64,000 nucleotides of DNA from Myxococcales bacterium (GTDB lineage Bacteria > Myxococcota_A > UBA9042): contig SHZF01000007.1 of the NCBI GenBank assembly GCA_009692425.1, positions 62,001-126,000 of the forward strand, written 5' to 3'. Shown piece by piece: positions 38,905 through 63,609 of the stretch. How positions within the stretch are numbered: the first letter of the stretch is position 1; each line of letters begins with the position of its first letter. Position numbers and translations under genes: made by a program. Under the pieces are notes generated by a model. It was not told the DNA's origin, did not search any database, and worked only from the letters and a program-made list of their open reading frames with translations.

Positions 38905-40941
<2,037 letters not shown>

Positions 40942-41016
40942 CGTGCTTCGGCCTCCCCGGCCGCCGTTCGGTTCACGAAGAGGGGCTCTCTCGCCGACCG
41001 ATTCATCCACCCACCA

Positions 41017-41045
41017 GACATACCGCCAATTGGCTCTCCGTGCAA
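41017..41045 (-). promoter_or_regulatory. Promoter candidate for the Ser/Thr kinase operon
   Basis: On the minus strand TTGCAC (41045-41040) and TATGTC (41022-41017) lie 17 bp apart in the 195-bp divergent gap. Both boxes are only partial matches, so this is tentative. Confidence 0.28.
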
Positions 41046-41136
41046 CCTCGCACCGCGCGATCGCTGCCCGCCGGCTTGCCAACGCCTCGGCAGCCGTGCA
41101 CGATTCTGCCGGGAATCCCCCTCGGTGGTGCCCGTG

Positions 41137-44148: not shown

Positions 44149-45411
44149 TCACAACGTCTTGGGTGGGTCGTTTAGTATTTCGATGTACCAAGCGTGGCCG
44201 ACGTCGTGGAAAAGCACGGCAGGCTGGCCCGGCGCCACCCACAGCAAGGGCCGGAACTCCTCGTAGAGCGCGTTGGCCACGGCGGGCTTGTGCTTCTTCC
44301 AGATGCCCTTGGCCTCGAAAAGCTTCGTCCACGAATCGTCCGTCTGACTGTTCTCGTAGCCGTTCGCGGCGATGCGCTGCCAGCCGGTGACAGGGTCCTT
44401 GGTGCGAGTGCACGGCAACGCGAACGTCTCAGAGCCCGTGGCGTAGCTGCCGTCGCCCCCGTCCCATGACGTGTTGAGCGTGGCCGTCATCGTGCAGGGG
44501 GTCGGCACATCGACCGGAGCGAGCGGCCCGCCGAAATCGAGCTGGATTGTGACGATGCGCACCTGCAGCGCCCCAGACGCCGGCATCACGGTATCGGAGC
44601 GATCGGCACGCTTGTATTGGTTGGCAGCGGCGTTCCAGGCGTAGGCCATGCGGTTGAAGGCGCGCTTGCCGGGCGTGTAGCCAGGGCCGTTGGGCTGCGG
44701 CACCGGCAGCGGCCATGGATCGACGACGACCGCGGTGTGGCGGCGGGTGTTGAAGGCGTCCTTCGGGTTCCAGACGTACTCGATGGTGTGGTCAGGCAGC
44801 ACCTTCATGTCGCCGAGCGTCTTCTTGATGGACTGCGGCCCGCACGAGTCGCGATCGACGATGACCTGCTGGAACCCCTGCGGCGGCGCAAACATCAGCC
44901 ACTCCTCGGCGTCGATGCAGTTGCCGATCGTGCGGCGCACCCAGTGGCCGGCGAGCGTCTTGCTGAACGCCACGGTCGGGTCGGGCACCGCGTCGGAGCC
45001 TGGGGTGCCATCAGCAGCGGAGGAACCGCTTGAGTCGGACCCCGGCGTCATGTCGGCCGGGACATCGCTCGCGCCACCGTCGGGGAACTTGTCGACGGGA
45101 CCCGTGGCGATTGCGCCGCCGTCGCCCAGGCCGGAGTCCCCCGCCAGGGCGACGGAGTCACCCGCCGGCAGCGCGTCGCCGAGCTGGGTCGCAGCACTGT
45201 TCGCCCCGCCCACGGCGCCGTCGGCCACCTTGCCGGAGCCCACGTCCGAGACCGTCGCGTCCGCTGCGGCACCCCCGGCCACTTCGACGTCGGTGCCGCA
45301 CGCCGCCAGCCCGCTCACCGTGAACCAGGTCGCGACCCGGACCACCAGCGCGGAGCCGCCGTGCGGCCGTCGGCTGCGTGGGCCCGCCCGATTCGGTCCT
45401 TGCTCGTGCAT
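44149..45411 (-). CDS. Lipoprotein of unknown function
   Basis: The protein has 420 residues. ATG 45411 gives a 38-residue N-terminus ending in the lipobox 'SGLAACGTD'. Residues about 40-140 are an Asp/Ala/Gly/Ser-rich stalk (DGGASDVPADMTPGSDSSG). The folded part (about 145-420) begins 'FSKTLAGHWVRRTIGNCIDAEEWLMF' and is rich in aromatic strands, with Cys at several positions that may pair. No family is recognised. It is the last gene of the leftward surface cluster, 123 bp after the SurA-like gene. Confidence 0.55.
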   Translation of the reverse strand: MHEQGPNRAGPRSRRPHGGSALVVRVATWFTVSGLAACGTDVEVAGGAAADATVSDVGSGKVADGAVGGANSAATQLGDALPAGDSVALAGDSGLGDGGAIATGPVDKFPDGGASDVPADMTPGSDSSGSSAADGTPGSDAVPDPTVAFSKTLAGHWVRRTIGNCIDAEEWLMFAPPQGFQQVIVDRDSCGPQSIKKTLGDMKVLPDHTIEYVWNPKDAFNTRRHTAVVVDPWPLPVPQPNGPGYTPGKRAFNRMAYAWNAAANQYKRADRSDTVMPASGALQVRIVTIQLDFGGPLAPVDVPTPCTMTATLNTSWDGGDGSYATGSETFALPCTRTKDPVTGWQRIAANGYENSQTDDSWTKLFEAKGIWKKHKPAVANALYEEFRPLLWVAPGQPAVLFHDVGHAWYIEILNDPPKTL

Positions 45412-45534
45412 GTTCGGCCCCCAGATGGTCCTGCCTGGCCGGGCGGCTCCGCCCGCTACCTGTTGCCTTGCCCAACGGGCGCGTGCTGCGGGTTGGACGG
45501 TGCGTGCGCGTCGGGCGGGTTCATGGCGCGCCGG

Positions 45535-46551
45535 CTACGGTGGGTTGGGCAGGCGCAGGTTGATGTGCGTCGTGGCCCGGAGTTCCTCGATCCAGGCCCG
45601 GTAGAGCCGCACGAGTTGCTCTTCGCTCAGGCGGCCGCGCACGACTTGTTCCAGCAGGTCCTTGTCTTTGACATCGGTGCGGCGCCGGTCGAGCATCTTG
45701 ATGATGTGAAAGCCGAACGGCGTCTGCACCACCCCAGAGACCTCGCCCCTCTTCATCGACCACAGCTTGTTGGCAAACGTCGGGTCGAGCGTCCAGCGCT
45801 TCTGCCAGCCGAGCGCGCCGTGCTCAGCGCCGCGATCGTCCGAGTGCTCGTCGGCGAGGTCCTCGAACGACTTGGCGCCCTGCTTGATCGCGTCGTGTAC
45901 CTGCCACGCGCGCTCGCGTCGGCGGGCGACCTCGAGCGGGCTGGCATCGGGCGCCACGCCGATGAGGATGTGCTGGGCCATCACCTCGTCTTCGTGCGTG
46001 CCGCCGCCGTGCTCCAGTTCGATGACGCGCTTGACCTCCTCGTCGGTGATGCGGAGCCGCGAACCGAGCTTGACCTTGAGCATCTGCATGCGCAGCAGTT
46101 CGGCGCGCACGTGGGCGCGGTAGCCGACGAGGTCGGAGAACCCGAGTTTCTTCACGTTCTCGTCGAGTTCTTCGTCCGTCCAGTTCGTGCGCTTGCGCGT
46201 CTGTTCGATCTGGGCATCGACCTCCTTGTCGTCGACGGCGAGGCCGAGGTCCTTTGCGGCCTTGCCGACCAGCACGTTGTCAATGAGCGACTGCAGCGTC
46301 TGCACGCGCAAGGCCGCCGGCGAGCGCGGCCGTTCAGCGTCGGCGGGCACCACCTGCTGGCTGGTCTGGTGGGAGCCCTCGGCGCGCCGCAGTTCGCTCG
46401 CCGTGATCACCTTGTCGCCGACGACGGCCACGATCGCTTCGACCTCGACGAAGCCGGCCGGCAGGGTCGCGCGCCGGGTCTGCGCGAATCCCTCTCGCGC
46501 TGCGCCCGCCACACCGAGCGTGGCCAACACGATCGCGATCGTGCTGTTCAT
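45535..46551 (-). CDS. SurA-like periplasmic chaperone/prolyl isomerase
   Basis: SurA-type proteins chaperone unfolded outer-membrane proteins. The 338-residue protein starts at ATG 46551 (AGGAGG four bases upstream) with a signal peptide 'MNSTIAIVLATLGVAGAA'. The N-domain (36-175) has 'VEAIVAVVGDKVITASELRR' and 'LQSLIDNVLVGKAAKDLGLAV', typical of SurA. One parvulin domain (about 185-300) has 'QHILIGV', 'FEDLADEHSDDRGAEHGALGW' and 'VVQTPFGFHIIKMLDRR'. E. coli SurA has two parvulin domains; this has one. ATG 46551 overlaps the stop of the upstream isomerase by four bases, so the two are co-produced. Confidence 0.85.
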   Translation of the reverse strand: MNSTIAIVLATLGVAGAAREGFAQTRRATLPAGFVEVEAIVAVVGDKVITASELRRAEGSHQTSQQVVPADAERPRSPAALRVQTLQSLIDNVLVGKAAKDLGLAVDDKEVDAQIEQTRKRTNWTDEELDENVKKLGFSDLVGYRAHVRAELLRMQMLKVKLGSRLRITDEEVKRVIELEHGGGTHEDEVMAQHILIGVAPDASPLEVARRRERAWQVHDAIKQGAKSFEDLADEHSDDRGAEHGALGWQKRWTLDPTFANKLWSMKRGEVSGVVQTPFGFHIIKMLDRRRTDVKDKDLLEQVVRGRLSEEQLVRLYRAWIEELRATTHINLRLPNPP

Positions 46552-47711
46552 TGCGCCTCCTGCGGGGAGCCGCTCTCGGCGCCGTGATCCTGGCCGGGTT
46601 GGCCGTGGCCGACGTGGGCGGGGTCCGCCGGCACGAGCTTGGGTCCCTTCGAGCCTGCCGCGGCCTCGATCTCGATCAGCCGCACGACATCGTCGTTGAC
46701 GTCGATCTTCGCCTTGGCGCGCAGGTCGTCGAGGCGCCGCTGGCGCAGCAGTTCCCGCTCGCGCTTGGCGACGCGCTGGGCAATCGAGTCCTTCACCTCG
46801 TCGAACGTCTTCTCGACGGCCGGGCTGCGCGAAGTCACCATCACCACATGGAAGCCGCGCGCGGTCGCCACCACCGGCCCGACCTCGAAGGCCTTGAGCG
46901 CAAACGCCGCCTCGATCAGTTCCGGCGGGATGACCGCCAACCGCGCGACCTCGGCCGGCGCCGCGCCGTGGGGAGCCGCCCGCGCCACAAGGCCGAGCGC
47001 ACCCAGTTGTGGTGCCGTGTCCTTGTCTTCCGAGAGTCGCACCACGTAGTCGTTCCACAGCGAGACCAACTGCGCCGTGTTGCCGGCCGACCCCGCGATC
47101 AGTTCGAGCCGCACCTTGTCGGCCTTGGCGCGGTTGGCGAAAAGCATATGGCTCACGTCGACCTGTTCGGGCTTGTGGTAGAGCTGCGGGTTCTGGTCGT
47201 AGTAGCTGCGTAGGTCGGCCGCCGGGATCGTCGCAGGCTTGATCTCAGCGTCGCCCACCGTTGCCAACCAGCGTCGCACCAGAGCTTGCCGGGTGATTTC
47301 GAGCACCTCGGGGTCGCGATCGAGACCCTGGCGGCGCGCTTCGGCGGCCAGCACCTCGAACTGCACCATCTTCTGCAGGTAGTCCTTGCGCTTCTGCACC
47401 GACGCGAACTGGCTGCGGATGACGGCCGGTTCGGCAAGCAGGCGCTGTTCGAGTTCGCCAAGCGTGATCTGGCGGGCGCCGATGGTCGCAACGATGACGG
47501 CGGCCTGCTCGGCGCTCAGCTTGGAGCCTTCGGTGCGCGGCGGCGCGGGCACATTCTCGACCTTGGCGGCCGCTGCGGCTGGTGTCTGGCCCGGGCCGGC
47601 GGGATGGGGCCGCTCCGGGCGGGCGCAACTGGCAAGGATGGCGCTGACCACCAGCACCGCCGGGAGCAGGAGGTTCGGGCTGAATGGCTGCTGTCGCATG
47701 GGTGGCTTCAT
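46548..47711 (-). CDS. Parvulin-type prolyl isomerase lipoprotein
   Basis: The protein has 387 residues from ATG 47711 (ATG 47699 is the alternative). The signal peptide ends in the lipobox 'AILASCARPE'. A Pro/Ala linker leads to a SurA/PrsA-like N-domain: 'VIVATIGARQITLGELEQRL', 'DYLQKMVQFEVLAAEARRQGL'. A parvulin-like domain follows (about 195-325) with 'VDVSHMLFANRAKA', 'LGALGLVARA' and 'ATARGFHVVMVTSRSP'. Conservation of the active site is weaker than in the SurA-like neighbour, so it may act mainly as a chaperone. The tail is Gly/Gln/His-rich. It is co-translated with the SurA-like gene. Confidence 0.82.
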   Translation of the reverse strand: MKPPMRQQPFSPNLLLPAVLVVSAILASCARPERPHPAGPGQTPAAAAAKVENVPAPPRTEGSKLSAEQAAVIVATIGARQITLGELEQRLLAEPAVIRSQFASVQKRKDYLQKMVQFEVLAAEARRQGLDRDPEVLEITRQALVRRWLATVGDAEIKPATIPAADLRSYYDQNPQLYHKPEQVDVSHMLFANRAKADKVRLELIAGSAGNTAQLVSLWNDYVVRLSEDKDTAPQLGALGLVARAAPHGAAPAEVARLAVIPPELIEAAFALKAFEVGPVVATARGFHVVMVTSRSPAVEKTFDEVKDSIAQRVAKRERELLRQRRLDDLRAKAKIDVNDDVVRLIEIEAAAGSKGPKLVPADPAHVGHGQPGQDHGAESGSPQEAQ

Positions 47712-47805
47712 CGGGAGGCGCCGCGCAAACAAGGTGGTAGCGGGGCGCACGGTCATGGCACAGGACACCGCGGGGCGCAACCGGCGGGCAGCAGGAACGG
47801 CCTGA

Positions 47806-49302
47806 TCACGGCACCGCACACGCTGCCGCGCAAAGTTTGGATTTGCAGGAGTCGCTCGCGCACTCGTCGCCGCTTGTGCACGCCTTGCCCGCGTCCTTGC
47901 GCGCGCCGCACACCTGGGTCGTCGCGTCGCACGTGAACGGCGCGGCGCAGTCCTTGTCGCACGGCTTGCCGGCACCGGGCGGCAGAGCACACGCTTTTGT
48001 CGCCGCGTCGCACGTCAAGTAGGGGCCGCACGCCAACGTAACCTCGCATGCCGCGCCCACCGGCGGCGGATCGACGCACACCTTCGTCACGGTGTCGCAC
48101 AGGAAGCCGATCTTGCAGATGCGCGTGACATTGACGGGCGGCGGTCCGCTCGGCTCGCCGCCGCCGTCCACGCCTGCATCGGCACTCGCGCTCGGGCCGG
48201 CCTCTGAACCGGCGTCCTTCGTGCTGCTCGCCGCATCCGTTGCAACGGGTCGCCGGGCCGCACCGCCGCCGCTGGCCGTCGAGCCTGACGACTCGCCGGA
48301 CAGCGCGCCAACGCACGGGCTGCCCTTGCCGACGTAGGCGGTGGCGGACTTCAGCGTGCACACGAAGGCGTTGGTCTCCTTGTCGAGCTTGCATGACGTC
48401 GATGGGTTGCTGAACCCTTCGCTGGGTGCCACGCCCGCCAGCGCCTTGAGCTGGTCCATCGTGTGGCAGGTGCCGGAGACACACTGGGCACCAGATGGGC
48501 ACTCGAGGCCGGTCTTGCAGGCACCCCCGGCGGCGACCCGCACCGTGCAGACCTTGGCAGCGGAACAGTATTGGCTGGCATCGCAGGAGAGTTCCATGTC
48601 GCACGCTTCGCCGGCCTTGGGCGGTACTGCGCAGACCTTGCCGTCCTTGCAGGTCAGCCCCGCCGCGCACTTGGCCGTGTCACACGACTCTCCCGCCTTG
48701 GCATAGACCGTGCATTTGCCAACCTGGCACTGGCCGCCCACGCCCGCCTTGTCGCAGAAGCCAGCGGGTTTGCACTCCGTGGAATCGACGCAAGGGTCGC
48801 CGAGCTTGCGACCGCCCGTGGCGAAGTCGGCACACGCCGCTGGCGACTGCGTCAGGCACATCGAGCCGATCGCCGAATAGCAGGCCGTGAACTTGGCCTG
48901 GTCGATCTTCACGGTCCCCTTCTTCACCATCTCGATCGCCGGCCCGACGCTCGCGATGCAATCCGCGACGTTCCGCTGCGTGGCCTTCAGTGCCAGGCAC
49001 GCCACTTTCGTGGCCGCCTTCTTGCACGCGACCTGACCGCCGCAGTTGGCGTCCATGAGTGCCAGGCACAAGCCTTCGGCCGTCTGCGTCGCCGTCGCGA
49101 GGTTCGCACTCACCGGCAACGGGCTGTTCGGGTTCGACGCCGGCACGTTCGCGGGCGGCGTCCCGGTACCGGCTCCCGGCCCGGCGCCGCCGCCGTTGGT
49201 GCCACCGCCCGCGCCCGCGGGGGCGTTCGTGCAAGCGATCAGGCTGGCGGGGATCACGAGCAGCGCCAGGAACGCGCGGGCAAAAGTGCAGGAACCGAAC
49301 AT
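47806..49302 (-). CDS. Cys-rich lipoprotein
   Basis: The protein has 498 residues. ATG 49302 has GGGAGG six bases upstream, and the lipobox is 'ASLIACTNA'. A Gly-rich stalk leads to a Cys-paired helical domain (about 70-165: 'LCLALMDANCGGQVACKKAATKVACLALK' split). Cys-rich repeats of the type 'G-x-x-C-D-x-x-x-x-C-x-x-G-x-x-C-x-x-G-x-C' follow, interrupted by an Ala/Ser/Gly/Asp-rich linker (about 355-410). The repeats resemble those of the 964-residue protein but are shorter. Surface location is inferred. It lies in the middle of the leftward cluster. Confidence 0.7.
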   Translation of the reverse strand: MFGSCTFARAFLALLVIPASLIACTNAPAGAGGGTNGGGAGPGAGTGTPPANVPASNPNSPLPVSANLATATQTAEGLCLALMDANCGGQVACKKAATKVACLALKATQRNVADCIASVGPAIEMVKKGTVKIDQAKFTACYSAIGSMCLTQSPAACADFATGGRKLGDPCVDSTECKPAGFCDKAGVGGQCQVGKCTVYAKAGESCDTAKCAAGLTCKDGKVCAVPPKAGEACDMELSCDASQYCSAAKVCTVRVAAGGACKTGLECPSGAQCVSGTCHTMDQLKALAGVAPSEGFSNPSTSCKLDKETNAFVCTLKSATAYVGKGSPCVGALSGESSGSTASGGGAARRPVATDAASSTKDAGSEAGPSASADAGVDGGGEPSGPPPVNVTRICKIGFLCDTVTKVCVDPPPVGAACEVTLACGPYLTCDAATKACALPPGAGKPCDKDCAAPFTCDATTQVCGARKDAGKACTSGDECASDSCKSKLCAAACAVP

Positions 49303-49367
49303 GATGGACCTCCCAGTCCGACGAGCCTGGGCCGCGAGCACGCAGCACGCAAGGAAGGGTGCGGGCG

Positions 49368-51431
49368 CTACTGCTGCCGCGTCGCGAAGAACGTCGCCTT
49401 GATCTGCTCCGGTTTCGATGCGAACTGCAGGGTCATGTCCCACTGGCATTGGTCGGCCGGCTGCAGCGGGTTGGGCGAGCCGACAAGGTCGATCCAGCCG
49501 TCATCGTCCGCGTCGAAGATCGGACACTTGTCGGTGCCGAGCAGCAGGCCCTTGCCAGAGTTGGGGTCGCCCGACTTGAGTTCGAGCCCGGTCAACTGCG
49601 CCTTCAAGAAGCCCACACCGACTGTGATCACCATCTCGCACATGGCGGCGAGGAAGTCGGGCTTGAGCAGCGACTGCTTCCCCGCCAGTTGGGCGCCGAA
49701 CTCTTCGCAGCAGGTGTCCTTGACCAGGCACTTCTTGCCGGCGATGACCGACTTGATCAGTTTCTCGTAGCTATCGACCACGGGGCCGGTCGGGTTCTTG
49801 GGGTCGAACGTGATCGCCGGCAGCACCTGCTTCTCGATGAGGTAGCTGACCAGCGCGCCCCATTTCACGTCGAGCGCGTGCTTGCCGATCTTGATCTCCC
49901 ACTTGGCGGCGTCGCGCCACAGGTCGAACGAGCCCACGATCGCGTTGGACTGGAACTTGTCGATGTCGAACGTCACCTTGCCGCAGTTCGCATCTGCGGG
50001 CTTGCAACCCTTGCCGAGCGACCACTTGTAGGTGATCTTCGTCCACGTCTGCTTCGTCATGGTTTTTGGTACAAAACCCGCAGCATCGGGCTCCTGGTCG
50101 ATCTGCAGCGTGCCGCCGACTTCGAGGTTCGTGAGGATTTCGGCGAGGTCGCCCGCCGTCTGCAGTCCCGCCTGCACGTTCGCCGGCAACAGGCCAACCA
50201 GGATCGCGTTGAGGAATTCGACGATGATCCCACCGAACGGCGACTGCAACTGGTTGATGTTCGGTTTCTTCGCATCCTGGAAGATGTTCTTGCACAGGCT
50301 TTCGAGGCTGCCCTGGCTCAGCTTGCAGGCGAGCGCAAAGATGCCGGCGACGGGCTTCTTCACGATGTCGAGGATGGCCGCCACCACGATCTCGACGCCA
50401 TCGGGCAACACGCTGACGAGGTTGAGGTAGGTCGTCAGATCGTAGGTGCCCTTGAGGCGCGGCGGGATGTCCTTGACGTCGACCGTGACGGCTTCGCCCT
50501 GCAGCGTCTTCGTCTTGGGGTCCCACCACACCTGTGCGCCGCTGTCGACGCAGCCGAACGCCACCGCCTTGCCCGTCAGCGAACTCATGCCGACGGGCCA
50601 CGCCACGCCGACGACGGTGAATGCAACCGGTGCGCCACTCTGCGGCAGCGTGGCAGCGAAGTTGGGGTAGCTGATCGTCCACGGCTTGTCCCATTTCAGC
50701 GCCGGGCTGGTCCAGGCGGCTGGCGGCAGCGCGTCGAGGTCGAGGCTGGCGCACACAGGGGCGCCGGCCGCGTCCTGCTTGGTCAGGCGCGCCTTGATGT
50801 CGCCGAACTCCGCCATCGACTTGGACCCCACATAGTGCAGCGTGATCGCGAGCGGCCCCTTGGCCTTGGAGCCCACCTGGATCGCGAATGCCAACGCGGG
50901 GACTGCGGGCTCGGCTGGCACGTGGGCCGTCACGCTCCACTGACCGAGGCCGAGGCCGACCTTCACTTCGGTGACGGCGAGGCCCTTGTCGTCGGTCATC
51001 ACGTTTTCGAGCAGCAGTTGGCCAAGGGATGCCGCCGGGTCCTGGGCGGCGAACTGGACCGCGACGTCGGCGACCGGTTGGCCGTCTCTCAGGTAGCGCA
51101 CGGCAAGCTTGCGCTGTGTGTTCTGCGTCATGAGCAGCGCGCATACCGGCGGCTCGCAGGGCTGGCCGGAGCCGTCGTCTTTTGCGGTCGCGAAAAGCAG
51201 CACCGGCCCCAGCGACCCGCCGTCCGCAGCGGCACCGCCCGCGCCATCGCCGCCAACCGCCCCGTCCGCCGACGCCGCGCCCGGGGTCCCGCCGTCGAAA
51301 GTGCCGTGGCCATCGACCGCGTTCTTCGCGTCGGGGTACGCGAGTGACCCCACCGTGATGCTATCGCTGCAGGCAGCGAGTGCCCCACAGGCGGTGGCGA
51401 GCAGGAACGAACTCCGGTGGCGAGCGGTCAT
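49368..51431 (-). CDS. Lipoprotein with Ig-like (Big_1-type) N-domain
   Basis: The protein has 687 residues from ATG 51431 (GGAGAG about seven bases upstream). The lipobox is 'GALAACSDS', followed by a D/G/A stalk. A domain at about 95-190 with 'RKLAVRYLRDGQPVADVAVQFA' and 'MTDDKGLAVTEVKVGLGLGQWSVTAHV' matches the pattern of bacterial Ig-like Big_1 domains (free parameter gains a value that later decays in form). A larger domain (about 350-660) of unknown family has amphipathic helices around 'ILDIVKKPVAGIFALACKLSQG' and paired Cys in 'CLVKDTCCEEFG'. It ends with a Ca-loop-like 'FDADDDGWIDLVG' (about 640-652). Function unknown; surface role inferred from context. Confidence 0.6.
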   Translation of the reverse strand: MTARHRSSFLLATACGALAACSDSITVGSLAYPDAKNAVDGHGTFDGGTPGAASADGAVGGDGAGGAAADGGSLGPVLLFATAKDDGSGQPCEPPVCALLMTQNTQRKLAVRYLRDGQPVADVAVQFAAQDPAASLGQLLLENVMTDDKGLAVTEVKVGLGLGQWSVTAHVPAEPAVPALAFAIQVGSKAKGPLAITLHYVGSKSMAEFGDIKARLTKQDAAGAPVCASLDLDALPPAAWTSPALKWDKPWTISYPNFAATLPQSGAPVAFTVVGVAWPVGMSSLTGKAVAFGCVDSGAQVWWDPKTKTLQGEAVTVDVKDIPPRLKGTYDLTTYLNLVSVLPDGVEIVVAAILDIVKKPVAGIFALACKLSQGSLESLCKNIFQDAKKPNINQLQSPFGGIIVEFLNAILVGLLPANVQAGLQTAGDLAEILTNLEVGGTLQIDQEPDAAGFVPKTMTKQTWTKITYKWSLGKGCKPADANCGKVTFDIDKFQSNAIVGSFDLWRDAAKWEIKIGKHALDVKWGALVSYLIEKQVLPAITFDPKNPTGPVVDSYEKLIKSVIAGKKCLVKDTCCEEFGAQLAGKQSLLKPDFLAAMCEMVITVGVGFLKAQLTGLELKSGDPNSGKGLLLGTDKCPIFDADDDGWIDLVGSPNPLQPADQCQWDMTLQFASKPEQIKATFFATRQQ

Positions 51432-51447
51432 CGGCAGACTCTCCGGC

Positions 51448-54210: not shown

Positions 54211-56219
54211 GGCAGCTTCTCCGCGACCTGGAACACGCCACCCTTCATGCCGACCGCAACCGTGCCCTTGGGCGACGCAGCGACGCCGTGCAGGCGGTTG
54301 CCGACCTTGCCGTCGAGGCGCACGAACCCGCCGCCCGGTTTGCCGACGACGACCGCACCCGCGTAGCCGACCGCGATCAGTGTGCCATCGGCGCGCCGCG
54401 TCAGGCCGTAGAGGAACAGCGCGTCGGGCGCCTCGAACACGGTCTTCCACCCCGCCGCCGTGCGTGCCATCACGACGCCCCCTTCGCCGACGGCAGCGGC
54501 CTCGTCCGCACTCCATGCCACCACGCGGTACAGTGCGCGCACTTCGTTCGTCTGCTCGGCCGCCCATTTGCCGTCGGCACTGCGCCGCAACACCGTGCCA
54601 GAGTCGCCGGCTGCGTACACGATGCCCGCAGCCTGGGCCACGCTGCGCAGGGCCACGGCGGTGCCGGTCGGCTCGACCTTCCACCCGCCGCCTGTACCAC
54701 CCGCCTGTGCGCTGGCCGCCGTGCGCACGACTGCGAGGCCCGCATCGCCGACGGCGACCCACCCGTCGCCGAGCGGCGCCACCCCGCGCAGGAAGCCGTC
54801 GTGGGCCACGCCCACCACCTTGTCGACGGCAAACGCGCCGCCCGCCGGCCGCCGCACGGCCACGCCGCCCTCGCCGACCGCAACGAGACCCCCATCTTGC
54901 GCCGCCGCGACGTCGAGCAGGGCCGCTGCCGTCACGGGCGCGGCCAGGTCGAAGAAAGGTGCGCCCGCGTCCGCGGCTTCGAGCAGCGTCCCGCCGTCGC
55001 CGCACGCGACGAGGCGTCCATCGGCGAGCGCGGTCACCGCTTGCAGGTCGGCGCCGGTTTCCGCAGGAAAATCCGTCCACTTGTCTTCGCCGCCCGCCGC
55101 GCTGGCCGCCATAATGATGCCGGCGCCCTTATCGCCGACCGCGACCGCCCACGCCTCCTTGTCGGACTTCGCGTGCCCCCAGATCGCGCGAAACGAGGCG
55201 ATCGTCATGTAGGGACCGACGATCGGCACGACGTTCCACTTCGCCGTCAGGTGAAACAGGATGCCCTTGACGCCGATCGCCCACGCATCGTTGTCGCCGC
55301 GCGCCCACACGCCGCTCAGGTCGCGGTCGGGCTCGTCGGGGTCGTTGGCGGGCGTCGCCTCCCACACGCCGGTCTTCGTCGCGGCCAGGAAGCCTTGGTC
55401 GCCCGCCATGAACAACCGCCCACCCGGGCTCGCGTCCAGCGCCCGCAATGCCCGCGCGTTGGCCTTGGGCAGCGCCGTCGCCGACCACGTGCCGCCCGCC
55501 AGCTTGAGCGCCTGCCCGTTGTCGCCGGCCACCCAGACTTGGCCGGGGCCGATCGCCCGCACGGCGCGCAGGTTGAGTTGCGAATTCGTCGCCTCTTTTT
55601 TCCACACGCCGTCGCTGTCGAGTCGCACGACCACGCCGGCGTCCGCCACCACGTACACCGGGCCGCCGGCCAGGGCATGGACAGCGTGCCAGACCGTACC
55701 GGCGGGCTCCTTGGGCGTGCGGTTTTCGAAGCTGCTGCCGTTCCAGCGCAGCACGACGCCGTCGCCCACCAACCACACGTCGTTCGGCCCGCGGCCCCAC
55801 ACGCCGCGCAGATCCTTGGCGGTTCCGGCGTTGCGCGGCACGAGCGTCTTGCCGTTCCAGTGCAGCGCGCGCCCCTGTTTGCCCACTACCCACACGTCGG
55901 CGGCGTGCGCGCCCCACACCGCGAGCAGGTCTTCGCCGAATTTGAGCGGCCGCGACTGCAGCACGCCGGGTGGCCCGGCATCAGCACTGTCGACGCTGGC
56001 GGCGTCTGGGGACGGGCCGGGATCGACGTCCGGCGCCGTCTCCGCGCCGCCATCTTTCGGGCCTGCCACGTCGCCGACGTCGCCGACGCTGATCGCATCG
56101 GCCTTGCCGCCATCGACGCCCGTGCCCACGTAGGCCGCCGGAGCCGGCTCAGCCGTGCAAGCAGCCAGCAGCAGCGCCGCCAGCCCGCCGGCCCATCTGC
56201 ACCGCACGTCTTGTCGCAA
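54207..56219 (-). CDS. Beta-propeller lipoprotein
   Basis: The protein has 670 residues from TTG 56219, with GGAG about seven bases upstream. The lipobox is 'ALLLAACTAEP', followed by a D/G/A stalk. Residues 85-670 are almost all W-G/D-W-A-V-G repeats ('VWGAHAADVWVVGKQGRALHW', 'VWGRGPNDVWLVGDGVVLRW', 'VWARGDNDAWAIGVKGILFHL'), giving a multi-bladed propeller or two. It overlaps the next gene by four bases. It is probably a sister of that protein after duplication, lacking its jelly-roll domain. Binding partners unknown. Confidence 0.72.
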   Translation of the reverse strand: MRQDVRCRWAGGLAALLLAACTAEPAPAAYVGTGVDGGKADAISVGDVGDVAGPKDGGAETAPDVDPGPSPDAASVDSADAGPPGVLQSRPLKFGEDLLAVWGAHAADVWVVGKQGRALHWNGKTLVPRNAGTAKDLRGVWGRGPNDVWLVGDGVVLRWNGSSFENRTPKEPAGTVWHAVHALAGGPVYVVADAGVVVRLDSDGVWKKEATNSQLNLRAVRAIGPGQVWVAGDNGQALKLAGGTWSATALPKANARALRALDASPGGRLFMAGDQGFLAATKTGVWEATPANDPDEPDRDLSGVWARGDNDAWAIGVKGILFHLTAKWNVVPIVGPYMTIASFRAIWGHAKSDKEAWAVAVGDKGAGIIMAASAAGGEDKWTDFPAETGADLQAVTALADGRLVACGDGGTLLEAADAGAPFFDLAAPVTAAALLDVAAAQDGGLVAVGEGGVAVRRPAGGAFAVDKVVGVAHDGFLRGVAPLGDGWVAVGDAGLAVVRTAASAQAGGTGGGWKVEPTGTAVALRSVAQAAGIVYAAGDSGTVLRRSADGKWAAEQTNEVRALYRVVAWSADEAAAVGEGGVVMARTAAGWKTVFEAPDALFLYGLTRRADGTLIAVGYAGAVVVGKPGGGFVRLDGKVGNRLHGVAASPKGTVAVGMKGGVFQVAEKLP

Positions 56220-56240
56220 GGGAGGTCTCCGGCCGGGCGA

Positions 56241-59200
56241 CTACTGCCGCGTGAATAAGAATGAGGTGTACGCCCACGAGCGCCAAGTCAACTGGTTGAA
56301 ATCGCTGCCATCGTAGGCGTCGATGTCGAACCCTTCCTTGTAGATGCGGAACACGGTCAACCGCAGCATCTTGCCCTTCGGAATGCCGGGCGTGCCCTGG
56401 ATCGCCGGGAAATCGGGCAGTTCCACCTCCGTCAGGCTGCCCTTCGTCGTGATGTTCCACACGGGCGTGTCGGGACCCATGCCCGGGATGCCTATCGTTG
56501 CGTAGTTGAAGTGCGGTTCGACCGTCTGCGGGTCCACCTGCCACTTCAACTTCGTGCCCGCCAGCATGCCGCCCTTGAGCGGTTGTACGGCGAGCGGCGG
56601 GTAGAGCATCGGCCCCAGCACGAGTTCCTGCTCGCCCAGCCCAAAGAAATCGCCCTTGCCCGAGACCCACAGCGCGTTCAGCACCTTGTCGACCGATTTG
56701 CCGTCCAGCTTGCTCCACGCCTTGCCGTCCCAGTGCACGACCACGCCGCGCTGGCCGACCGCCCACACGTCGTTCTTGCCGCTGCCCGCGACGGCCGTCA
56801 GCGTGGTCTGCACCGGCGAGCCCATCGCCTTCCACACCAGGCCGTCGAAGAACAGGATCTGGCCCTTCTCGCCGACCGCGAACACGGCGTCGGCGGCCGC
56901 GGCGTAGACGGCACGCAACTGGATCGAGGTGCCGGAAGCCTGCGACTTCCATAGCGCGCCATTCCAGTGCCAGATCGAGCCGAAGGTGCCGACCGCCCAC
57001 ACGTGGCTGCTGTCGCTGCCGTGGATGCCGATGAGGTTGGTGAACGTCGATGGGTTGAACTTCTGCCACGTCGGCACGCCGGCCGCATCGGCGGTCAGCT
57101 TGTAGATGCCGTTCGTGGCCGCCGCCCACACGTCGGTGCCGCCGCTGCCTGCGATCGCGACAACGCCGTTCAGGTTCGTGGTCGCGGGCTGTACTGGCGT
57201 CGCCTTCCACCCCGTGCCGTCGAACTGGGCCGCGGCGCCGTTCCACCCCACCGCCCACAAGTGGCTGGCGTCGGTACCGTGCACCGCCTTGAGGTCTTCC
57301 TTGACCGGGCTCGCCTGCACCGACCAGACGCCGCCGTCCCAGTGTACGATCGCGCCCTTCGCGCCGACCGCCGTCAGGTCTTTGGGCCCCGTGCCCCACA
57401 TGCCGTAGATGTTCGATTTCACACCGGTATCGACGATCTCGAAGTCGCCGCCAGCCAGCCGCCGCACCATCGCGTCGTTCGACAGCGACTTCACGTCGGA
57501 GCGCACCGTCACGCTCGTCGGGTCCTGTTGCCCCTGGCCCGCGTACTCCAGCGCCAGGGCGATGAACGTCAGCGACGCATCGTGGATGTCGCCCGCAAAC
57601 GCCGACGGCAACTGCTCGATCTGCATCTTGTCGTTGTCGGCCTGGAACGGGAACGTGAGCACCTGATCCGGCATGCGGATGGCACCGTCGGCGCCGAAAT
57701 CCATTTCGGCCCAGCCCGCGTAGATGATCTGGCCGCCCGGCGCCACCGGCCACTGGTGCGGCACGTCGATGCGCACGCTGGCCTTTTGCGTCAGCGGGAT
57801 GGTGAGCGCGATGTTCAGTCCCTCGATCTTGTTGAAGTCCGGCTGACCCGGCACCGTCGGCGGCGGCCCGGTCATCACGTGGCGCTTGACGCCCATCATC
57901 AGCGCGGTGAACTCAGCGAGGCTGTTGGCGTCCTCGACGTTGAGCACGGCGCCGTGCTTCTTGTAGCCGCCAAAGCACACGATCGCCATCTCGCCGAACC
58001 CGGTCACGATCTTGTAGCTGAAGCCGTTCTGGGGCGTCGCCTCGAAGCCCTTGCCCTCGGCCGGGTAGTGGTCGCGGGCGAGCGGGTAGCCCTTCGAGTG
58101 GTAGCACACGGCGACGGGCTCGCCCTTGAGCGGCATGCAGCGCGACAGCTCGCCGGGGAACGGAGTGCACTGGAAGCCTTTGCCGCAGCCGACCTGCGAA
58201 CAGTCCTTCAGGCAGCGCTTGCCGCCGAGGCTGCTGGCGAGTTCGACGCACGCATAGCCGGGCTGGAAGGCGCACTGGGCATCGTTCGCACACGGCTGGC
58301 ACGTCGGCACCGGCACTTCGAGGGTGCCGATCAACGTGGGAATCCCCGTCACCGCGTCGCTGCACGACATCGGCGGGATCGCCACGTACTTGTCCAAGCC
58401 CACCACCTTGCCGGACACGGTCGGCAACGGCACGCCGGGCGGTGGCGACCCGGGCGTCGGTGGCGGAATGTAGGTGATGTGCAGGGTCACGTTGGTGGCA
58501 TCGAACAGCACCACCGAGGCCGACTCGTGGCTCGGTTTGGAGGCCGACACCATCTGCTTGCCCATGACGTCGTCGCCCGAAAACGTGATCTGGCCGGCCG
58601 CGTTCGTGAAGCCCTGGTAGGGCGTCGTCGGGTCCGTCCACAGCATGACGAAGGCGTCGCCCACCGGCTTGTTCGAGTTCGATTCCAGCACGGTGATGTT
58701 GACGGAGCCATCGACTTCGCTGCCCCACGTGCCGCCGTTTTTCGACATCGGGTTGAAATAGACGAAGCCGCCCACGAGCACGGCCGACTCCGCACCCACC
58801 TGCGCCACGACATCGACCGCGCCGACCTTGCCGGGCGGCGACTTGACCGTGACGTGGCCCGGGTCGAGGAACGCGAAATGCGTTGCCGGCACACCACCGA
58901 AAAGCACCTGCATCGCCGGCGCGAAGCCGTTGCCGTACAGGTGCACGAGCGTGCCGCCGGCCTGGGCGCCCGCCGACGGGAACGCCACGTAGAGCTGCAG
59001 GCCTTTGCCGGTGTACTGGAAGCCGTTCTTCAGCACGGCGGTCTGCGCGCCGACCGTCACGGCCACGTCCGCGTAGCCGGCGGGCCCGGGCGGGGTCACG
59101 GCCTCGAGAACCTGATCGCTGATGGCGACGACCGCGGCGGCCGGCAGCGCGCCGACCTTGACCGACGGCTTGGCCTTGGCGAACCCGCTGCCCAAGATGA

Positions 59201-60557
59201 CGATCTTCGTGTTGCCCGCGGCCGGCCCGACCGCGGGCGCCACGCTCTTTACGGCGAGCGCATCGGTGTAGGTGTAGCCGCCCGCGAGCGTGTGCGTGCC
59301 CTTTGACGTCAACAGCACGACGTCGACCGGCCCCGGCGCCTTGCCGGCCGGTGCGGTGGCGACGATCGTCTTGTCTGCGCCCGACACGGACGTGATGAGC
59401 GCCTTCTTCTGGCCGAAAAGCAGCGTGGTGTCGGACAGCGAGACGAGCCCGGTCGCCACCACGATGACCGAATTGCCGCCGCCGAGCGGACCGTGGGCGG
59501 GCGCGACCGAGAGCACCTGAGTGGTAGCCTGACCCGCGTCGTCGTTGTAGACGAAGCCGCCGACCAGCGAACCGACACCCCACTTGGACGTCACGGTGAC
59601 GTCGGCCGGCCCCGCCTTGCCGGGCGGCGTGGCGATGCGCAGTTTCTTGTCGCTGACGAACTCGAGCACCGAAGCCTTGGCGGCGCCGATGCTGACTTCG
59701 CTCGTCTTGGTAAAGCCGCTGCCCGTCACGCTCGCCTGAGTGCCGCCGGCCGTCGGACCCGCCGCCGGAGCGACCGCGGCGATGGTCGGCGCGGCGGTAT
59801 AGAAGAAGCCCTTCTTCATCACGCCGACGCCGCGCTCGTTGGCGACGTGGACGGCGGCCGGACCAAACGGACCGGGCGGCGTGATGGCGGCGATCGCGTC
59901 GTCGCCGAGCACCTGGACACCGAGCGCGGGCTTGCCGCCGATGAGCACCGTCGTCTGGCCCTGGAAGCCGGTGCCCTTGATCGTGATCGCCGTGCCGCCG
60001 CCGACTGGCCCTTCGGCCGGGGTCACGGCAGACAGCACGACCTCGTTGAAGTACAGGTACGCATTCGGCAGCTTGGCAACGCGCGCGGGTTCATCCTGCG
60101 TCTTGCCGTCGATGACGGCCTGGATGTCGACGAGGCCGACTTCGTGCGGCGGCATCTTGACCTGCACGGTGCCCTTGTCGACCACGAAGACCGCAGCCGG
60201 GTCGATGGGGGTCGTGCCGACGAGTACCTGCATGCCGGCCTCGAAGGCCTCGCCCGTCAGCGTCACGGTCTCGCCGCCCGACGCCTTGCCTTGCGCCGGG
60301 TTGACCGCCAGCAACTTCAGTTCGAAGCCCATCGGCTTGGGCTTGGCGGCGTCCGCTGCCACGGCGTCCGCGCCGGCCGGACCCGTGGCCGCATCGGCCC
60401 CTGCGCTTGCATCGGGCTTTGCTGCTGCGACATCGGGTGCCACGGCCGCCACATCTGCACCCGTTGCCGTCTTGCCCGCCGCGCCGTCTTCGCTGCAGGC
60501 GACAACCCCGCACAGGAACACCAGGAGTGTGCCGTGCCGCGCGATCCCGCTAATCAT
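56241..60557 (-). CDS. Six-TIG, beta-propeller mosaic lipoprotein
   Basis: The protein has 1438 residues from ATG 60557 (GGGGG six bases upstream). The lipobox is 'GVVACSEDG' and a D/A stalk follows. Residues about 75-610 hold six IPT/TIG (Ig-like) domains, each opening 'V-x-P-x-x-G-P-x-x-G-G-T' and closing 'GGFxY', for example 'VTPAEGPVGGGTAITIKGTGF'. A carboxypeptidase-regulatory-like domain (about 615-700) and a Cys-rich EGF-like region ('CQPCANDAQCAFQ' to 'CGKGFQC', about 755-820) follow. The rest contains W-G/D-V-W-A-V-G repeats such as 'HVWAVGTFGSIWHWNGALW'. TIG domains bind proteins or sugars in adhesins, so an adhesin-like role is inferred. Confidence 0.75.
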   Translation of the reverse strand: MISGIARHGTLLVFLCGVVACSEDGAAGKTATGADVAAVAPDVAAAKPDASAGADAATGPAGADAVAADAAKPKPMGFELKLLAVNPAQGKASGGETVTLTGEAFEAGMQVLVGTTPIDPAAVFVVDKGTVQVKMPPHEVGLVDIQAVIDGKTQDEPARVAKLPNAYLYFNEVVLSAVTPAEGPVGGGTAITIKGTGFQGQTTVLIGGKPALGVQVLGDDAIAAITPPGPFGPAAVHVANERGVGVMKKGFFYTAAPTIAAVAPAAGPTAGGTQASVTGSGFTKTSEVSIGAAKASVLEFVSDKKLRIATPPGKAGPADVTVTSKWGVGSLVGGFVYNDDAGQATTQVLSVAPAHGPLGGGNSVIVVATGLVSLSDTTLLFGQKKALITSVSGADKTIVATAPAGKAPGPVDVVLLTSKGTHTLAGGYTYTDALAVKSVAPAVGPAAGNTKIVILGSGFAKAKPSVKVGALPAAAVVAISDQVLEAVTPPGPAGYADVAVTVGAQTAVLKNGFQYTGKGLQLYVAFPSAGAQAGGTLVHLYGNGFAPAMQVLFGGVPATHFAFLDPGHVTVKSPPGKVGAVDVVAQVGAESAVLVGGFVYFNPMSKNGGTWGSEVDGSVNITVLESNSNKPVGDAFVMLWTDPTTPYQGFTNAAGQITFSGDDVMGKQMVSASKPSHESASVVLFDATNVTLHITYIPPPTPGSPPPGVPLPTVSGKVVGLDKYVAIPPMSCSDAVTGIPTLIGTLEVPVPTCQPCANDAQCAFQPGYACVELASSLGGKRCLKDCSQVGCGKGFQCTPFPGELSRCMPLKGEPVAVCYHSKGYPLARDHYPAEGKGFEATPQNGFSYKIVTGFGEMAIVCFGGYKKHGAVLNVEDANSLAEFTALMMGVKRHVMTGPPPTVPGQPDFNKIEGLNIALTIPLTQKASVRIDVPHQWPVAPGGQIIYAGWAEMDFGADGAIRMPDQVLTFPFQADNDKMQIEQLPSAFAGDIHDASLTFIALALEYAGQGQQDPTSVTVRSDVKSLSNDAMVRRLAGGDFEIVDTGVKSNIYGMWGTGPKDLTAVGAKGAIVHWDGGVWSVQASPVKEDLKAVHGTDASHLWAVGWNGAAAQFDGTGWKATPVQPATTNLNGVVAIAGSGGTDVWAAATNGIYKLTADAAGVPTWQKFNPSTFTNLIGIHGSDSSHVWAVGTFGSIWHWNGALWKSQASGTSIQLRAVYAAAADAVFAVGEKGQILFFDGLVWKAMGSPVQTTLTAVAGSGKNDVWAVGQRGVVVHWDGKAWSKLDGKSVDKVLNALWVSGKGDFFGLGEQELVLGPMLYPPLAVQPLKGGMLAGTKLKWQVDPQTVEPHFNYATIGIPGMGPDTPVWNITTKGSLTEVELPDFPAIQGTPGIPKGKMLRLTVFRIYKEGFDIDAYDGSDFNQLTWRSWAYTSFLFTRQ

Positions 60558-60625
60558 GATCTGCCCCCGTCTCTTGTGCGCGGCGTGCCTCCGTTGGTGC
60601 GGAACCGTCGCGCGCGATCGCCCAG

Positions 60626-62683
60626 CTACTGGCCGGGTTGCTTGATCAGGTCCAGCGTCTTCAGGTCGAGCCCGGCCGGATAGCCGTAGGACACGTACTG
60701 GTCAAACCCGTACACGTCCACGGCCACGGGCCGCGGTTCGTTCTTCATGCGTTTCGACGTGACATTGTGAGTGCCCGACTGCAGCAGCATCCGCGTGAAC
60801 TTGAAGTCCTTCGAGATGCCCGTCCACAAATCCGGGGCGACCACTGCGCCATCGACCACGACCTCGGCGTCTACTGGCGCCGCGATCGAGATGTAGTTGA
60901 AGGCGTACTTGTTCGGCGTCAGGAACACGTAGTCCTCGCGCCACTGCTCGGTCGGGATCGCGAGCAGGAAGGCGGGATCGCCCGTGCCCGCGTCGCCTTG
61001 CTGGGTGCCCGACACGTTCGGGTCCGGTGCGTCCTGGCTCGACATGAAGTGACCGACGAGGATGGGTGCCGGGGCGCCGTCGTCCTTTTTGGCGATGATC
61101 TCGAAGCTGTTCTTGGACTCGAACTCGTACCACTCGCCGGCATCGAGCACGGGCGGATTGATCGCGTGGCCCTTGGGGTCTTTCTGCGGCGGGACCAGCG
61201 CGATCTTCGTGCCGTCGCCGGCCGCCAGGATGCGCCACGAATCGGCCTCCTGCCCGCGCGGAAACAGTTTGACGCCGACGTAATGGCTCGCCCACGTCGT
61301 GACCGGGAACATCTGCATCTCGAGGTGGTCGGCACAGCACGTGATGAAGGCGCCGCAGTGCTCGTTGTTGGAGCAGGCCGTCTTCGGGTCCCACTCGCAG
61401 GCGCCGCACTTGATGCCCTTCTCGGCCTCGCCCGGTTTGCACTTGTCTCTCAAGCAGTGGTTCGTGTTCGGCACGTTGGCGGCCTCAGAGCCGCTGAACA
61501 CCGCCACCTTGTTGTCGGCGAGCACGACTGTTCCGGTCAGGTCGGAGCCCACCTCGTTCGTCTCGATGTTGAGCACGTCCCACTTCTTGAGCTGGAACTG
61601 GGCCGACTCGCCGGCCTTGAACGCCTTGATCTTGCCGTCGCTGCTGGGCAGGGTCGTGCCCGACGTCTTCGAGAACGTGACCGTGACGTTCGTGATGCCA
61701 TCGACCGTGGCGGCCACCGTGACGAAGCCGCGCAGGATGGAAAACGACTGCTCGCGCGTCATCACGATGTACCAGGTGCCGAGTGCTTCGGACGGCAGCA
61801 GCAACGACGCGTCGTTGGAGTACACGTTCACGTTTTCGAGCGGATTGAACTGGTAGGCGGCGATCGGCGCCGAGGTGTCGATGCGGTAGGCCACGGCCTT
61901 GATGCCGGTCGCGTCGGCATCGCGGCGCTGCAGGTTGAACACGCGCAGGTCGCCGGCGCCGAGCGGGCTGACATCGAGCGGATTGAGCTGGGCGTCGAGC
62001 GTGACTTCGCCCTCGTTGTTCTCGACCTTGATTGTCGACGAGAGTTTGTCCGAAGCGTTTGAAACAACAACCGAATATTGGGCACCGGCCGCGTCATAGT
62101 ACTGGCGCTTGCCACCGGGCACGAAGGCGTTGTCGAGATCGACCGCCCAGAATGAGCAGCCGACGTAGCTTTTCCGCTTGACGTGGTAGTCGCAGGCGCG
62201 CTGGCACAGGCCGCCGGCGGTGCAGATTTCGCCCTGCTGGGCGTTGCAGGTCGACTTCTTGTCCCACTTGCCCGCGGCGTTGCAGATCTCGACGACGGTG
62301 GAGTCCTTCGGGCTGCAGCGCGTCAGGTTGACGGGGCAGTTCGTGCACACGCCGGGGTTGAGGCATCCCGTGGCGGCGCCCGTGTCGTCGGTGCACAGGA
62401 TGGCGGCGTAGCCGGCGCCGTCGTCGGTGCAGCGCAGCACGTGGGTTTCGGATTCGCAGCCTTTCGTCGTGCCCGGCGTGCAGATGGCGCCCGCCGGGAG
62501 TTCTGCCGCCACGTCGGTGGTCGCGAGCGGGGCGTCGGGCGTGGCACGGCCGCCGGCGTCGGTCGTTGCTTTGGCGGCATCGGCCGCGCCGGGTTCGGGC
62601 GTGCTGCAGGCGCTGACGGCGGCGACAAGCGCAACGACTCCAACCCAAAGCAGCGCGATGGCAAGGGGGGCTCGTTGCTGCAC
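60626..62683 (-). CDS. IgGFc-binding-like lipoprotein
   Basis: The protein has 685 residues. GTG 62683 is preceded by AGGAG five bases upstream, which decides the start; the frame is open further. The lipobox is 'AAVSACSTP'. A Cys-rich region (about 75-175) is followed by a domain resembling the IgGFc-binding N-domain: 'CSFWAVDLDNAFVPGG', 'YSVVVSNASDKLSSTIKV', 'AYRIDTSAPIAAYQFNPL' and 'DYVFLTPNKYAFNYISIAAP'. In animals that domain is found in mucin-binding FCGBP; bacterial copies are surface proteins of unknown ligand. It is the first gene of the leftward surface cluster and follows a promoter-like sequence. Confidence 0.72.
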   Translation of the reverse strand: MQQRAPLAIALLWVGVVALVAAVSACSTPEPGAADAAKATTDAGGRATPDAPLATTDVAAELPAGAICTPGTTKGCESETHVLRCTDDGAGYAAILCTDDTGAATGCLNPGVCTNCPVNLTRCSPKDSTVVEICNAAGKWDKKSTCNAQQGEICTAGGLCQRACDYHVKRKSYVGCSFWAVDLDNAFVPGGKRQYYDAAGAQYSVVVSNASDKLSSTIKVENNEGEVTLDAQLNPLDVSPLGAGDLRVFNLQRRDADATGIKAVAYRIDTSAPIAAYQFNPLENVNVYSNDASLLLPSEALGTWYIVMTREQSFSILRGFVTVAATVDGITNVTVTFSKTSGTTLPSSDGKIKAFKAGESAQFQLKKWDVLNIETNEVGSDLTGTVVLADNKVAVFSGSEAANVPNTNHCLRDKCKPGEAEKGIKCGACEWDPKTACSNNEHCGAFITCCADHLEMQMFPVTTWASHYVGVKLFPRGQEADSWRILAAGDGTKIALVPPQKDPKGHAINPPVLDAGEWYEFESKNSFEIIAKKDDGAPAPILVGHFMSSQDAPDPNVSGTQQGDAGTGDPAFLLAIPTEQWREDYVFLTPNKYAFNYISIAAPVDAEVVVDGAVVAPDLWTGISKDFKFTRMLLQSGTHNVTSKRMKNEPRPVAVDVYGFDQYVSYGYPAGLDLKTLDLIKQPGQ

Positions 62684-62738: not shown

Positions 62739-62768
62739 AAGGTACCCGATCTCACTGGACCGGGTCAA
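62739..62768 (-). promoter_or_regulatory. Promoter candidate for the surface lipoprotein cluster
   Basis: On the minus strand TTGACC (62768-62763) and TACCTT (62744-62739) are 18 bp apart. The -35 box matches five of six consensus bases and the -10 box three. The start of transcription would be about 49 nt before GTG 62683. Confidence 0.42.
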
Positions 62769-62856
62769 TGCCGACGCGGCGCCTCCGGTCAGCCGACACG
62801 TTCACGCAACCTATTGTGGGGAAACATCAATCTTGCGCCACTGTCCGACCACGACC

Positions 62857-63609
62857 ATGCCCGCGCTGCCCCGCCATCTGTACTTCTACCTGCAACTCGG
62901 CCTGCGCACCGTGGCGCATGGAGCCGTCGCCGTCGATGCCAGCCTGCGCGGCGATTGGGTCGGCGTCGAGCGCCAGCAGCGCGCGTGGGGTGCGGCCCTG
63001 GCGCGCGCGGCCGGCTTGCGCCTGCATGTCGACGGCGCGCACCTCGCGGTGCCGGGCCGGCCCTACGTCATCATCGCCAACCATGTCACGGCCTTGGATC
63101 CACCGGTGCTTTTCGCCGCGCTGCCCATGGGCACAACCTACGTCGCCAAGCGCGAACTGCTCGATGTTCCCTTTTTCGGCCCCCTCATCGGCCGCACCGG
63201 CGCGGTGTTCATCGACCGCGGCGACAGCCTGCGCAGCCGCCAGGCCCTGCACGCCGCCGTGGCGCGGGTCCACGCCGGCCAGAGCGTGCTTGTGTTTGCC
63301 GAGGGGACGCGCACGCGCTCGGGGCGGCTCAAGCCGTTCAAGAAGGGGGGCTTCGTGCTGGCGATCGGGGCCCAGGTCGACGTGTTGCCGGTCGCGCTGG
63401 GTGGGCTCTACGAGAAACTCAAGCCCGGCGAACTGCTGCCGCGGCCGGGCGAGGTCACGATCCGGTTGTGTGCGCCGATCTCGACGGTCGGCATGGGCTA
63501 CGAGGATCGCGCGCGGCTGATGGCGCAAACCCGGGCGGTCATTGCCGAGGCAACCGGTCAGGAATTGGAGGGCGCGGCCCGTCGAACGCCCGCGGCAGCC
63601 GCACAGTAA
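62857..63609 (+). CDS. 1-acyl-glycerol-3-phosphate acyltransferase family protein (PlsC-like)
   Basis: PlsC adds the second acyl chain to lysophosphatidic acid at the inner membrane. The 250-residue protein has 'IIANHVTALDPPVLFAAL' (NHxxxxD motif with Thr in place of Ser), 'VAKRELLDVPFFGPLIGRTGAVFIDRG', 'VFAEGTRTRSGRLKPFKKGGF' (EGTR motif) and 'VLPVALGG'. The frame opens at TTG 62833; ATG 62857 is preferred. The last 71 nt overlap the 3' end of the convergent kinase gene. Which acyl carrier or lysolipid is used cannot be told. Confidence 0.88.
   Translation: MPALPRHLYFYLQLGLRTVAHGAVAVDASLRGDWVGVERQQRAWGAALARAAGLRLHVDGAHLAVPGRPYVIIANHVTALDPPVLFAALPMGTTYVAKRELLDVPFFGPLIGRTGAVFIDRGDSLRSRQALHAAVARVHAGQSVLVFAEGTRTRSGRLKPFKKGGFVLAIGAQVDVLPVALGGLYEKLKPGELLPRPGEVTIRLCAPISTVGMGYEDRARLMAQTRAVIAEATGQELEGAARRTPAAAAQ

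Follow-up and report, generated by a model that had tools for sequence, protein, structure and literature searches.

The question raised by this locus was whether nine genes encoded on one strand, seven for exported proteins and two for parvulin-type prolyl isomerases, make up one surface-assembly module with its own folding helpers. The gene run was examined for layout and protein families, for gene order in related genomes, and for the predicted localisation of its products.

Layout of the nine-gene run

Nine ORFs, all on the minus strand, were confirmed at positions 44149–62683 of the window (the whole 64,000-nt stretch of DNA that was analysed), and they were designated g1 to g9 (Table 1). 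From g1 to g9, the intergenic gaps were, in order, 68, 21, -4, 16, 65, 94, -4, and 123 nt, and the co-orientation and the gap range given in the original prediction were thus both correct. GC3 across the nine genes was 0.85–0.91, which was the level of the coding genes in the window (70% GC).

Table 1. Genes of the run and the element upstream of it (positions in the window)
Feature	Position	Strand	Description
g1	60626..62683	-	Lipoprotein: Cys-rich head and IgGFc-binding domain
g2	56241..60557	-	1438-aa lipoprotein: six TIG domains and a Ycf48-like propeller region
g3	54207..56219	-	Propeller-repeat lipoprotein (from repeats by inspection, family alignment, and synteny)
g4	51448..54210	-	Propeller lipoprotein in which a MAM/choice-of-anchor-J-like domain is embedded; 4-nt overlap between its start and the g3 stop
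g5	49368..51431	-	Lipoprotein: Big-1/Ig-like part at the N-terminus and a C-terminal domain (residues 305–687)
g6	47806..49302	-	Cys-rich lipoprotein, 48 Cys in the ORF
g7	46548..47711	-	Parvulin-type prolyl isomerase lipoprotein
g8	45535..46551	-	SurA-like prolyl isomerase of the periplasm; 4-nt overlap between its start and the g7 stop
g9	44149..45411	-	Lipoprotein; no Pfam/NCBIfam family
Promoter-like element TTGACC-N17-GTACCT	62740..62768	-	56 nt upstream of g1

The identities that had been proposed from the letters were recovered for the IgGFc-binding-like, TIG/propeller, and prolyl isomerase proteins. The g1 protein belonged to PF17517 (IgGFc_binding; E 8e-56; 189.9 bits against a gathering score of 25.6), g2 carried multiple TIG domains (six stretches; E 8e-61; 202.5 bits), and g7 and g8 belonged to Rotamase families. 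No Pfam family was found for g5, g6, or g9, and g3 and g4 gave sub-threshold matches only. A lipobox was present in g1–g7 and g9 (8/9 genes), while g8 had a signal peptide without a lipobox; the lipobox claimed for every large protein was therefore found, the remaining protein being the SurA-like one.

The D/A/G-rich stalk of the large proteins was also present, but it was not peculiar to the cluster, since a neighbour on the plus strand (40390–44031) had a milder one. This neighbour, which lies beyond g9 and is convergent with it, encodes a large lipoprotein rich in Cys: its ORF has 128 Cys, and Cys motifs recur in it. At the g1 end, a PlsC-like acyltransferase gene, assigned by inspection (62833–63609, plus strand), is divergent from g1, and related ORFs were found upstream of g1 in six family relatives.

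Conservation and predicted co-expression of g1–g5

The order and strand of g1–g5 were kept in 20 of 20 sampled family genomes, a count in which the contig of G013 stops before g5, and the aligned segments were 37–66% identical. The g1 ortholog was the first gene of the cluster in all 20. Orthologs of g2 shared 53–59% identity in the family and 37–41% in other families. Directly after g5, a conserved opposite-strand gene was found in at least 11 of the 20 relatives, so the conserved unit ends at g5. No convincing relative of g6 was found outside the source genome, with weak partial matches only in relatives, and g9 was present in 7 of 21 relatives, on contigs other than those of the parvulin pair. 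On these comparisons, g6 is restricted to the source genome and g9 is patchy, and neither belongs to the conserved unit.

The relatives found in the contig search with the g5 profile, which was the family alignment, were draft genomes, several of them with lake isolate names (e.g., Erken, Baikal); contig G010:C36 holds the g1–g5 cluster. A record titled as a Klebsiella pneumoniae MAG (CAMDBH010000036.1; L162) contained a g5 relative of 52% identity, and its organism name is evidently wrong.

The overlap of g3 and g4 was exactly 4 nt in the source genome and in 16 of 20 relatives, and the other gaps were mostly below 120 nt. The promoter-like site that had been noticed upstream of the cluster was the only TTGACC-N17-GTACCT site in the window. 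Its TTGACC was found upstream of g1 in 15 of 20 family sequences vs about 1.1 expected from shuffling, which bore out the original prediction on this point, and the spacing to a TA-containing hexamer was usually 17–18 nt. Genomes G003–G007, which belong to one genus, lacked TTGACC upstream of g1, and a generic sigma-70 scan detected no promoter. The g3/g4 overlap, the short gaps, and the TTGACC element support one predicted transcript for g1–g5, by which five large outer-membrane lipoproteins would be read from a single promoter upstream of g1, with g3 and g4 probably translationally coupled. No terminator was predicted between g5 and g6; therefore, g6–g9 may be read with g1–g5 in the source genome.

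Outside the family, eight other families of the class had g1 and g2 side by side, in 13 loci in all, with g1 immediately upstream of g2; in 10 of these 13 loci, propeller genes resembling g3/g4 were downstream of them. Homologs of g5 were present in 50 of 52 class genomes, and those outside the family were unlinked from g1–g4. Because of this arrangement, g1–g4 appear to be the older unit, which g5 would have joined in this family, and not all five partners would be obligate. The phylum-wide search was made with g2 only; at E <= 1e-130, a threshold that catches close orthologs only, none of the genomes outside the class, in a sample of 189 from the phylum, gave a g2 match.

Lipoprotein genes are numerous, and g1–g5 could be read as a chance run of unrelated exported proteins: the families of g1 and g2 are represented several times in a genome (with at most 14 and 23 matching stretches, respectively), and large Cys-rich proteins made up about 7% of the sampled genes of at least 300 aa. 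However, chance runs are expected to scatter at such divergence, whereas the specific orthologs of g1–g5, not paralogs, kept order, strand, and the 4-nt overlap across 10 genera, and g1–g2 stayed together across families. A chance run was accordingly considered unlikely, and the comparisons of gene order supported g1–g5 as a conserved multi-lipoprotein module.

The parvulin pair g7–g8

The g7 protein matched Rotamase_2 (Pfam; E 1.5e-18), and one copy was found in each of 22 family genomes. The g8 protein matched both PF00639 Rotamase (E 1e-21) and PF09312 SurA_N (E 1.4e-11) above the cut-off, as expected of a SurA/parvulin protein; against the SurA equivalog NF008038 it scored 93.7 bits, below the cut-off of 394, so g8 was regarded as SurA-like and not as canonical SurA. 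Several NCBIfam parvulin models matched g7 and g8, all below the curated cut-offs. Four more PPIC-type rotamase matches were located on another contig of the source genome (G000:C79, about 18–50 kb).

Comparison of the neighbourhoods showed that g8 adjoined g7 in 21 of 21 relatives and that g8 was present in 47 of 52 class genomes. Up to about 20 kb on each side of the pair, neither g1–g6 nor g9 was found in any of the 21 relatives, except for two weak partial g6 matches several kb off; among the sampled genomes, the pair was downstream of g1–g5 only in the source genome. The commonest identified neighbour of the pair, in and outside the family, was mfd (mfd and LexA neighbours were identified by sequence inspection and tblastn). 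In six family genomes, mfd, coding for a protein of about 1230 aa, was upstream of the pair on the same strand, adjacent or one gene away, and of 20 class loci outside the family, 10 had an mfd match upstream of the pair at a distance of up to about 3.5 kb. The gene lexA was downstream of the pair in four family genomes. No TTGAC-type promoter was found upstream of the pair in any genome searched, and the literature search returned no paper on mfd linked with parvulins.

According to the original prediction, the two parvulins are folding helpers dedicated to the adjacent lipoproteins, which would make the whole run a surface-assembly module. Their co-orientation and the short gaps in the source genome agree with this, and there is a precedent in Lactococcus, where the parvulin lipoprotein PrtM is specific for its client protease PrtP and encoded with it (PMC3307742); as in PrtM/PrtP, a parvulin lipoprotein gene of the source genome stands beside genes for large exported proteins. 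In a second family, a g5-like paralog was directly upstream of the pair on the same strand (G041:C42; L145/L212), the only case among the fetched loci outside the family. Unlike PrtM/PrtP, however, the linkage was not conserved: the parvulin gene was next to the presumed clients in 0 of 21 relatives, and the pair was class-wide with mfd as its commonest identified neighbour. Since the pair was away from g1–g5 in all relatives, the claim of dedicated folding helpers was not supported, and synteny ruled it out as the main explanation; as a reading of the run it was rated improbable. A weak functional attraction between g5-like genes and the parvulin pair may still exist, as the class had two such neighbourhoods (in the window, g5 is one gene away from the pair); the count is small and was made post hoc.

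In 6 of 22 genomes (G011, G014, G016, G019, G021, and the window, where it is g6), the gene upstream of the pair on the same strand encoded a large Cys-rich protein, against the share of about 7% given above for such proteins among the sampled genes; the genomes compared are not independent.

The adjacency of g5–g6 and the parvulins might also be an assembly or binning artefact, as the source genome is a 4.94-Mb draft of 137 contigs and the sole sampled member of its genus. However, the junction is internal to a 128-kb contig and GC3 was unchanged across it, and an artefact was judged very improbable. The nine-gene run is instead probably a composite, formed by a conserved g1–g5 operon and a separate, general parvulin doublet. 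The g7–g8 genes are orthologs of the mfd-linked PpiC/SurA pair of this Myxococcota class, and differ from it in that the pair sits downstream of g5–g6 in the source genome. They would form a general envelope-folding doublet, which may well fold the g1–g5 lipoproteins like other exported proteins and would not be dedicated to them.

Conserved gene order had been set beforehand as the test of the module. It held for g1–g5 in the family (20/20 genomes) and for g1–g2 in other families, and it failed for g7–g8 (0/21). The view that no described system has this set of genes likewise stood for one part of the run: no description of the conserved ordered set g1–g5 was found in the literature searched, while the nine genes together are not one conserved set.

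Predicted localisation, domains, and role of g1–g5

A strict-pattern lipobox was found in 88 of 99 g1–g5 orthologs (19/20, 15/20, 19/20, 18/20, and 17/19 from g1 to g5). At +2 of the mature lipoproteins, Ser, Gly, Ala, or Thr predominated; among the orthologs listed, Lys occurred there once (in a g4) and Asp a few times. A +2 Lys is the mark of inner-membrane lipoproteins in Myxococcus xanthus, and a +7 Ala that of extracellular-matrix lipoproteins (PMC3222651). By the M. xanthus +2 rule, g1–g5, having a lipobox and no retention residue at +2, are therefore predicted to be outer-membrane lipoproteins; the +7 Ala extracellular-matrix signal was not conserved in them. Taken together with the predicted transcript, g1–g5 are very likely a co-expressed set of outer-membrane lipoproteins.

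The TIG region of g2 matched plexin/MET IPT domains and its propeller part matched Ycf48-like propellers (hmmsearch), and a choice-of-anchor Z repeat was found in g2 with NCBIfam. The g4 protein had Ycf48 propeller matches (E 1e-8), a weak InhA-like MAM match below the cut-off, and a sub-threshold choice-of-anchor J match (NCBIfam). In the N-terminal part of g5, Big_1 was found in 5 of 30 members, and the fold search with full-length g5 returned mainly Ig-like domains. The C-terminal 383 residues were modelled by AF2 with a pLDDT of 81.8 and a pTM of 0.72; this model had no PDB match at E<=0.001 in Foldseek, and the region had no Pfam family. PDB profile searches with the g5 and g1 alignments gave no matches. 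Among the g5 residues that were invariant class-wide were the lipid Cys and other cysteines, with a CC pair among the latter, as well as two Trp and one His. A TULIP-like (lipid-binding) reading of the C-terminal half, suggested by the order of helices and sheets, was dropped, as the PDB fold search gave no support.

According to the proposed mechanism, the g1–g5 proteins would receive a lipid anchor, move to the outer membrane, and work jointly in a multi-protein assembly, whose binding modules (IgGFc-binding, TIG, beta-propellers, and Ig-like) would be kept at a distance from the membrane by a flexible linker rich in D/A/G. The assembly would most likely stand at the cell surface and serve attachment or ligand capture. 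The chances that the five proteins assemble into one complex were put at about even, and the case for binding or adhesion as their role, which was judged from the domain types, was equally balanced. A bolder reading, which makes g1–g5 an undescribed surface complex and a hallmark of the class, with a new-fold domain in g5 and with attachment to prey, particles, or kin, is put forward tentatively and was thought rather unlikely in full.

Compared with known systems, g1–g5 resemble the Sus-like surface lipoprotein complexes of Bacteroidetes (PMC5080379) in having several co-encoded lipoproteins made of binding domains. They differ in that no SusC/TonB-dependent transporter was found among the nine proteins, no K-(D/E)2 export signal followed the lipid Cys in g1–g5, and the protein families are unrelated. 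The g1 and g2 proteins are members of the IgGFc-binding (PF17517) and TIG/propeller surface proteins, for which the literature search returned no paper on IgGFc-binding proteins in Myxococcota; the ordered set with g3–g5 is undescribed in the literature searched.

These results indicate that a folding helper encoded beside large exported proteins is not necessarily reserved for them. The g5 protein, present in nearly all class genomes, has a C-terminal domain without a known family or fold match. No cultured member was among the records of the lineages that carry g1–g5, and the unit gives a short list of proteins for them. The operon was kept intact across the class, as four genes class-wide and five in the family, and its function would thus seem to be rarely lost.
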